From positions 1-55,063 of the forward strand of contig JAAXWP010000009.1 in NCBI GenBank assembly GCA_013334925.1: a DNA stretch of 55,063 nt, in the 5' to 3' direction. Position numbers and translations under genes: made by a program. Below are positions 2,201-5,471 of this stretch, in pieces. The notes below the pieces were generated by a model. The model worked only from the letters and a program-made list of their open reading frames with translations, ran no database searches and was not told the DNA's origin. How positions within the stretch are numbered: position 1 is the first letter of the stretch; the number at the start of each line of letters is the position of its first letter. Source of the stretch: Chlorobiaceae bacterium. GTDB lineage: Bacteria; Bacteroidota; Chlorobiia; Chlorobiales; Chlorobiaceae.

Positions 2201-3577
2201 GTGAAGTTTTTTTTATCCGACGGTATTTCTACCTTGAACGAAGATACCTGTCCGGATGTCCTCCAGCCGCGCCGCGTCAGGTCTGAACACGCACCATTCA
2301 TGAGAGAAAAACTGACGTCATCGATATCTTTCAGCGGCCTTTTCCGGCATGCGGGATCCGGTACGTTCGCCCTCCTGTCGTTCATGGGGAGGCGCTTCAT
2401 GCAGGATCGAATTCTGCTGAGTGCAGGCTCCCTGTCTTTTCAGACACTGCTCTCGCTGGTGCCTTTGCTTGCCGTGATACTCTCGACGCTCAAGGTATTT
2501 CCGTTTTTCGCACTGATCAAACGCTACATCGGAGACTTCCTGTTTCAGAACTTCGCACCGGCACAGGGTGCGCTGCTGAAAGGATATCTCTGGGCCTTCA
2601 TCGACAAAGCCTCTACCGTGCCTACGATCGGAGGCGTGTTCCTCGTCGTCATCGCCCTGTTCCTTATTTCCACGATCGATCAGACGCTGAACGGTATCTG
2701 GGAAATCCATGCCCCCAGAAAATTTGTTCAGGGATTCACACTCTACTGGACAGTGCTGACGCTTGGTCCGGTCCTGATCGGCACCAGTCTGGTGGCCAGC
2801 TCTTTCGTCTGGTATGCGGTATTCACCGAAGGGGCTTTGCTGGAGATGAAGACCAGATTGCTTTCTCTGATACCTGTGCTCAATTCGATAGTAACCTTCA
2901 CGCTGCTCTATCTGATCGTACCGAATCGAAAGGTGAGGTTCGTTCACGCGTGTGCCGGAGGTTTGATGGCTGCGGTGCTGTTCGAACTCGCCAAAAAGTG
3001 GTTTACTTTCTATGTCTCAAACTTCGCCACTTTCGAGCACATCTATGGTGCCCTGTCGGTGGTGCCGATGCTCTTTTTCTGGGTTTACCTCGAGTGGGTA
3101 GTGGTGCTGACCGGGGCTGAATTTGTCTACTCGCTTGGATACCGTACGCAGGAAGTCAGCAGTATGAGGAGCTTCGCCCCCCTGCGTGGAGTACCAGAAA
3201 CCCTTGCCATTCTCGAACATGTCTGGCAAGGGCAGAACGAAGGACATTTCATGAACATGAAAAAGCTCTTTGCGGCGGAAAATATTGCCGACCGTAGTAA
3301 ATTGAGCCGTATTGTGGATTTTCTGTTACAGAACGAAGTTATTCACCAGACCGCAGACGGAGGGCTGGCAACCAGCGCCGATCTGCATTCGCTCACGGTT
3401 TACGACCTTTACTCGAAACTTCCACCGGAGATCGTCAGGGGAGAGGAGGGGATGGCGGAGGCCAGGATGGGCAGCCGGCTTTCGGCAATCAGTCAGGGAG
3501 TGGAAGAGGCGCTCAGGAGCGGTATGAGTGTGCCGGTCATTGAGCTGCTGAACGATACAATATCAAGCGATACATGA
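2201..3577 (+). CDS. YihY/BrkB-family inner-membrane protein
   Basis: Up to 458 residues. The core (about 60-320) has the family hallmark [28 protein letters not shown], then several long hydrophobic segments consistent with about six membrane spans, and the conserved [30 protein letters not shown]. Members were once called ribonuclease BN, but that annotation is not supported for this family; a transport or envelope role is usually assumed. The roughly 110-residue soluble tail may be winged-helix-like. The GTG start at 2201 is the longest; ATG at 2300 (MREKLTSS) is equally plausible, and neither has a good ribosome site. The last four bases overlap dnaX (ATGA), suggesting translational coupling. 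Confidence 0.85.
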
Positions 3578-5471
3578 GTTATCAGGTTATAGCGCGTAAA
3601 TACAGGCCATCCCGATTTGCGGATATTACGGCCCAGGAACACATAACCGGCACCATCCAGAACTCCCTGAGAATGGGAAGGGTCGGTCATGGATATATCT
3701 TTTCGGGGCTCAGGGGTGTTGGCAAGACCACGGCTGCCAGGGTATTCGCCAAGGCGGTCAACTGCCAGAGGATGATCGACGACCCCCGTTACCTGAAGGA
3801 GGTCACCGAGCCTTGCGGCGAATGCGAGAGTTGCCGTGATTTCGACGCCGGCGTGAGTCTGAACATCACCGAGTTCGATGCGGCATCCAACAATAGCGTC
3901 GACGATATCCGTCTGCTCCGCGATAATGTTCGTTACGGCCCGCAGAAAGGACGATACCGCGTCTATATCATCGACGAGGTGCACATGCTTACGACGGCTG
4001 CATTCAATGCCTTCCTGAAGACTCTGGAGGAGCCACCGCCACATGCGATCTTCATCTTCGCGACCACGGAGCTGCACAAGATTCCCGCAACGATCGCTTC
4101 GCGATGCCAGCGATTCAATTTCAAGCGCATTCCGATTGTCGAGATCCAGAAGCAGTTGCAGTTCATCTGCGATGCCGAGGGGGTTACGGCCGATGCCGAT
4201 GCCCTGCAGCTTGTGGCTCGCAAGGCTCAGGGCTCGATGCGTGATGCACAGAGCATCCTTGACCAGGTGATCGCGTTCGCCCTCGATGCGGAAGATTCGA
4301 AGGCGATCCGCTACGAAAAGGTATCGGAACTGCTCAGCTATATCGATGACGACCATTTCTTCATGGTGACCGATGCCATCGTTTCAGGTGATGCCGCCGC
4401 GATGCTCGACGTGGCGATGATGGTGAACCGCAATGGTTACGATGAGCAGGATTTCATCGAGAAACTCATCGAGCATTTCAGGAATTTCCTCATCATCCAC
4501 AACCTGCGTTCCAGCCGCCTCATCGAAAGGCCGGAGCCGGTCAAGGAGCGATACCAGCGCGATGCGGCGAAGATATCGCCAGCGGCGCTCATGGCCATGA
4601 CCGATTTTCTGCTGCAGACCCAGCGTGAACTGAAGTTTTACTCCGAACACCAGTTCCGGTTCGAGCTGGCGCTGCTGAAGCTCATCGATCTTGGCGGTTC
4701 CGGTCGTCAGGGTGACGTTTCCGCTCCGGCGGCCGAAAAAAAAAAGCCTCTCCTGAGCCAATAGCCGCTTCTTCGGGCTCGGCATCCTCATCCACTCCGG
4801 TACCCGCCGCAGCCAAACGGCTTCCGGTCGGGGAGACCCGTTCCACATCCTCACTGCCGGAACCACCGGCGCCTTCACCGTCATTGCCACCCATACCTCC
4901 TCCGCCTCCGCCAGCAGCGTACGATGCTCCATCAGTGTCTGCCCGTAACGTTGAGCGAGCACCATCATCCGGCCAGAAGAAGTTCGATCTCGGCTCGTGG
5001 AAAGATGCGTTTTCAAGCTTTGGAGCCAACGTCGAGCCACGAATGCCACAGGCAGCGAGGACGCAGCAGGACGGAGCGACGCCAGTCGGAGACGGTTCTG
5101 TTTTGATTACCCTTGAACAGCTCCGGCTCGAATGGCACCGTTTCCTCGAGCATCTCACAAAAAAGGGGATGCAGGTACTGGTATCGCATCTGCACTCCAG
5201 CGAGCTCAATTCCTGTTCACCTCACGGGATCGTGGGGATCGGGTGCTGCCGGAAATTTTCGTACGAGGAGTTGCTGCATGACGCGCAGGTGCTCGAGGAG
5301 GAACTTGCCGGATTCTACGGCCTGCCGCTGAAGCTGCAGGTCCGTTATGATGCCGAACGGGATGCATGCACGAAAGAGCGCACGGTATTCACCATGTTCC
5401 AGGAGCTTTCGGAAAGCAACGAGGTGGTCAGATACCTCATCAGCGAGTTTGGAGGGGAGCTGGTTTACTGA
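3574..5471 (+). CDS. dnaX: DNA polymerase III gamma/tau subunit, split over two frames at an A10 run
   Basis: Clamp-loader ATPase. The 0-frame product (3574-4764, 396 aa) carries the whole AAA+ module: Walker [13 protein letters not shown], a zinc-knuckle CGECESC, Walker B with IIDEVHML, sensor 1 [18 protein letters not shown], sensor 2 GSMRDAQS, and domain III. It ends EKKKPLLSQ just after a run of ten A (4736-4745). The -1 frame is open from the run to 5471 and encodes a Pro/Ser-rich linker and a tau-like C-terminal domain (about 241 aa). A -1 shift at 4740-4746 would give a 632-residue tau, close to E. coli tau (643); without a shift, a gamma-like 396-residue protein. Here the 0 frame gives the short form, the reverse of E. 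coli. Ribosomal frameshifting, polymerase slippage on the A-run and a base-count error are all possible. Confidence 0.88.
4736..4780 (+). promoter_or_regulatory. Candidate dnaX slippage signal: A10 run with slippery heptamer and downstream stem
   Basis: Ten A (4736-4745) followed by G place the heptamer A AAA AAG at 4740-4746 in the phase required for -1 ribosomal slippage (0-frame codons AAA AAG). Nine bases downstream a stem GAGCC (4755-4759)/GGCTC (4776-4780) can form, and the 0-frame TAG (4762-4764) lies in its loop. A purine-rich GGGTGA lies about 25 bases upstream, farther than the E. coli stimulatory site. Ten A would also favour RNA-polymerase slippage, as known for Thermus dnaX. Confidence 0.6.

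Follow-up and report, generated by a model that had tools for sequence, protein, structure and literature searches.

We found that dnaX, which codes for the clamp loader of DNA polymerase, is divided into two ORFs at a run of ten A residues (A10) in a green sulfur bacterium of the Chlorobiaceae, and this run is almost certainly a programmed slip site. The window, i.e. the whole stretch of DNA that was analyzed, has 55,063 nucleotides. The gene belongs to an already published, rarely studied two-ORF type and its inverted order of products is not new. What is added here is that related genes changed repeatedly between split and fused forms with the run preserved, and that such genes are present in other Bacteroidota.

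Organization of the dnaX locus

The frame-0 ORF (3574..4764, + strand) encodes a gamma-like protein of 396 aa. Its translation contains the AAA+ ATPase domain, the lid and domain III (Pfam PF13177, PF22608, PF12169), and it matched the NCBIfam model PRK14955 (397 aa) with 802 bits, the cut-off being 560. By direct reading, the codons across the boundary are GCC GAA AAA AAA AAG CCT CTC CTG AGC CAA TAG. The A10 tract lies at 4736..4745 (+), and within it the in-frame heptamer A_AAA_AAG (4740..4746, +) forms a possible site of -1 ribosomal shifting; most relatives share this phase-1 layout of A10 followed by G. A TGA at 4754..4756 (+), 11 nt past the run, closes the +1 frame, and closure of this third frame is conserved. 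The gamma-like product ends with the TAG at 4762..4764 (+), 19 nt past the run, a spacing that is identical in nearly all split relatives.

The -1 frame (4746..5471, +) stays open for 241 aa, up to the TGA at 5469-5471, and encodes a Pro/Ser-rich linker and the tau C-terminal domain. Its product corresponds to positions 401-620, the C-terminal third, of the 620-aa DnaX model PRK14954 from NCBIfam (E 3e-73); a Pfam profile search returned no model for this tail. The joined product would be tau of 391+241 = 632 aa. The preliminary description had reported that frame 0 closes just after A10, that the -1 frame is open to 5471 and that A AAA AAG stands in the required phase, and our reading of the bases and translations agreed on all three points.

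The type was named as a new structural one by Antonov 2013 (PMC3711429), where 17 such genes from 12 genera were listed, nine of them with 10 A and Chlorobi included, and polymerase slippage was proposed. The genes of Chlorobium and Chloroherpeton described there agree with ours in the short frame-0 product, in tau lying in the -1 frame and in poly-A at the junction. Ours comes from another species and is of the same kind: its ORFs overlap with a -1 shift needed for tau, the junction poly-A is conserved between genera, and its products are gamma and tau of DnaX as judged by sequence families only. Repeated changes between split and fused forms are not mentioned in its passages on this type. 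The product order had been noted in the preliminary description as the reverse of that in E. coli, which is correct, but was already described by Antonov 2013. The inverted order was restated in a 2016 review, which remarked that at an efficiency near 50% one base can reverse the roles of the products.

Conservation of the A-run in Chlorobiales

With the frame-0 protein as query, we screened 98 Chlorobiales genomes, took the boundary DNA and placed the tau tail by translated search. The counts below cover the 89 genomes in which both boundary and tau tail were covered; a class-level genome search added nothing outside Chlorobiales. The two main groups are called Chlorobaculum and Chlorobium here, genus labels that were inferred from named records. 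Counting the run in related genomes had been proposed in the preliminary description, and we detected it at the gamma/tau boundary in 89 of 89 (A10, n = 80; A9, n = 8; A11, n = 1). Only five exact A10 runs were found by pattern search in the 2.73-Mb genome. Because A10 is that rare and the run is kept in all 89 genomes, its presence in dnaX is not due to chance.

Tau was encoded in the -1 frame in 74 genomes, in frame 0 in 15 (the run was still there) and in the +1 frame in none. This conservation across the order, together with the 15 relatives that carry the same tau tail in frame 0, bears out the assignment of the unshifted product as gamma-like and of tau to a -1 shift. In split genes of the green sulfur family the -1 frame was open for 534-729 nt. 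Both non-tau frames reached a stop no more than 30 nt past the run in 86 of 89 genes; random codons from these genes gave 13%. Relative to the tau frame the arrangement around the run did not vary: in the green sulfur family one non-tau frame ended 6-12 nt and the other 13-28 nt past the run, whichever frame was frame 0.

Homopolymers are error-prone and the genome that holds the window is a draft in 101 contigs, so A10 might be a miscount from sequencing or assembly, or dnaX a recent frameshift pseudogene. This is extremely improbable. The same run and split were observed in 74 genomes, of which several (G002, G015, G024, G086) are single-contig assemblies. Conservation extends to both ORFs, and the -1 frame is kept open; assembly error is ruled out by the order-wide conservation of the run. 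Ribosomes might also re-initiate past the gamma stop and make the C-terminal part of tau as a separate, unfused protein, and an ORF starting from TTG 4884 does exist in the -1 frame. The first in-frame start, however, ranges from 21 to 444 nt past the run between species, and in 15 relatives a single frame encodes the fused protein, which makes re-initiation very improbable.

Changes between split and fused dnaX

On a tree of the N-terminal DnaX protein (88 rows), genes with one ORF and genes with two ORFs were intermixed. We counted 11 changes of state, nine of them forced by well-supported branches. The changes arose by indels of 1-2 nt inside, before or after the run, and its length stayed at 9-11. 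Sister pairs differed by an A gained or lost within the run (L012/L017, L149/L146, L150/L152), by a one-base indel before it (L125/L137) or by an indel of one or two bases past it (L016/L018, L004/L008, L003/L011). Single-contig assemblies occurred among both split and fused states; some changes in draft genomes may be errors. Of two sister species, each assembled as a single contig, G015 has A9 and is split and G019 has A10 and is fused, a frame difference of one base at the run. If the slip-site model is true, these two species should make the same two proteins. We found no paper on such changes of dnaX in green sulfur bacteria or Bacteroidota, within a partial coverage of the literature. 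For slippage in an essential gene of replication, the dnaX locus and its relatives amount to a natural experiment.

The preliminary description held that a run of 8 or 11 A would make one continuous frame and remove the need for slippage. This proved too strict, as one-frame relatives keep A10 or A11 and both nearby stops. Since these features are kept, such relatives still look slip-dependent, for gamma rather than for tau.

Selection on the A-run

With the phase seen here, the heptamer begins at the last A of the second run codon and takes in just the two codons that follow. The codon that opens the run, GAA or CAA, lies outside it, and a G in its third position would leave the protein unchanged. 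In Chlorobium we observed CAA in 53 of 53 genes with Gln at the start of the run, while other conserved Gln columns of DnaX were 6% A-ending. In Chlorobaculum the codon was GAA in 18 of 18, as against 24% A-ending for Glu elsewhere in DnaX. These codon counts come from related sequences and so are not independent, but the columns they are contrasted with belong to these same genes. The contrast shows selection on the A-run beyond the 7-nt ribosomal heptamer: the first codon is always A-ending, unlike in the other columns, and the run is therefore kept longer than the heptamer needs.

Mechanism of slippage

The preliminary description had left open whether the ribosome or the polymerase slips, and the comparison of genomes favours the polymerase. 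We consider it likely that polymerase slippage is the main route to tau and that both proteins are made. In the proposed mechanism, the A10 tract would act as a programmed slip site through which dnaX is expressed as two products. RNA polymerase would slip on A10 and give mRNAs of varying A number. The unaltered mRNA would yield the 396-aa gamma-like subunit, and an mRNA with one added A, or a change of the same class, would join frame 0 to the -1 frame and yield the 632-aa tau. An mRNA in the third frame would stop 11 nt past the run and again give a gamma-like protein. Slippage of the ribosome by -1 on A_AAA_AAG may contribute extra tau.

The dnaX gene of Thermus thermophilus, which relies on polymerase slippage on A9, likewise has at least 9 A at the boundary and both non-tau frames shut nearby. 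At the locus studied here the run of at least 9 A is under selection, and the non-tau stops stand at 11 and 19 nt. No conserved stimulator was found at Chlorobiales dnaX, and in this it is like Thermus. Tau is in frame 0 in Thermus and in the -1 frame here, and the 15 fused genes of Chlorobiales are laid out as in Thermus. The long run and the third-frame stops therefore argue for the Thermus mechanism.

In E. coli, by comparison, dnaX uses -1 ribosomal frameshifting stimulated by a Shine-Dalgarno sequence and a stem-loop. Our gene shares the in-phase A_AAA_AAG and the -1 shift; it differs in that the order of products is reversed, the run extends past the heptamer, and neither the 3' stem-loop nor the 5' Shine-Dalgarno sequence is conserved. 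If the ribosome alone made tau in this way, with the polymerase copying the run faithfully, the heptamer would be in the right phase and tau would be in the -1 frame of every split gene, as we observed; moreover, E. coli-like stimulators were mentioned for Chlorobium phaeobacteroides in the 2016 review (unpublished data). Yet we regard this as rather unlikely. The A residues outside the heptamer, which are under selection, are not needed for -1 ribosomal slippage, so their retention favours the polymerase. The third frame is closed too, which -1 ribosomal shifting does not need, and several fused and outgroup genes have just A_AAA_AAA in phase, a weaker site in E. coli (2016 review).

The stimulators themselves were rejected as candidates. 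We observed no conserved 3' hairpin past the run in three groups (mean z = 0.38, -0.05 and -0.15), and the 95-nt region at the present dnaX was not more stable than its shuffles (z = -0.55). The preliminary description had pointed to a GAGCC/GGCTC stem. Its letters are present, as a weak hairpin at 4755..4780 (+; GAGCC 4755-4759, GGCTC 4776-4780), but the stability of the region did not exceed that of shuffles and the partner strand GGYTY was found in just 3 of 19 Chlorobaculum genes, so it is unsupported as a conserved element. No clade showed excess stability. An upstream Shine-Dalgarno sequence was not enriched across 89 genes (3.13 vs 3.00). The lack of a conserved hairpin or Shine-Dalgarno sequence in these comparisons argues against the E. 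coli mechanism.

Some points count against the polymerase route. All split genes have tau in the -1 frame (74/74 in Chlorobiales, 8/8 in other Bacteroidota), whereas symmetric slippage would permit +1, and a single direction of shift favours ribosomal shifting by the criterion of Antonov 2013. Two Chlorobium species listed there, absent from the present genome set, have A8 and A7, which is shorter than the 9 known to slip in Thermus. Since tau is found only in the -1 frame, polymerase slippage would have to be biased to insertion, or ribosomal -1 shifting would add to it. The extra bases carried by Thermus mRNAs (2016 review) are a precedent for a bias to added bases.

A broader reading, for which we see roughly even chances, is that the A9-A11 tract in dnaX of Bacteroidota works as a frame-agnostic slip site. 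Slippage would occur so often, with so strong a bias to one added base, that genes with tau in frame 0 or in the -1 frame would have similar gamma:tau ratios. If so, single-base indels would switch the gene between one ORF and two ORFs at little cost and tau in the +1 frame would be forbidden. The template reading frame after the run would then be nearly neutral in an essential gene.

dnaX in other Bacteroidota and its annotation

Outside Chlorobiales we chose eight dnaX genes with a short frame and 12 longer genes, and also read loci from earlier matches. In 8 of 8 short genes the boundary had A10 or A11 and the -1 frame was long; they were picked deliberately, so this is no frequency. These genes (L204-L211) belong to several Bacteroidota families and have ORFs of 356-378 aa from the match start; genes of this kind may be annotated as gamma only. 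Ten one-ORF genes carried A9 or A10, with a -1 stop within 12 nt in nine of them, and others were without the run.

NCBIfam holds two equivalogs for dnaX, PRK14954 (620 aa, the one-ORF form) and PRK14955 (397 aa). The latter appears to be merely the first ORF of split genes. Annotators should be warned that relatives with one ORF or two all carry the same gene.

A second A-run in rsmA

We observed a second coding A10 run outside the window, about 12 codons into rsmA (ksgA) (L225, G000:C5:10916-11065). The region had no Rfam match. The run was A9-A11 in 21 of 21 Chlorobaculum genomes, and the approximately 30 bases before it (GTTGAATATAAGCATACGCATATAGCGGC) were nearly invariant in this group, synonymous positions included. 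In L243 (A11) and L244 (A9) the start and the body of rsmA were out of frame at the run. The run may serve as another slip site or as an element for starting translation. In Chlorobium its length was A7-A10, and in four species (L246, L247, L255, L260) it was cut to A7 followed by C, giving KKQ and not KKK, with the upstream bases still conserved.
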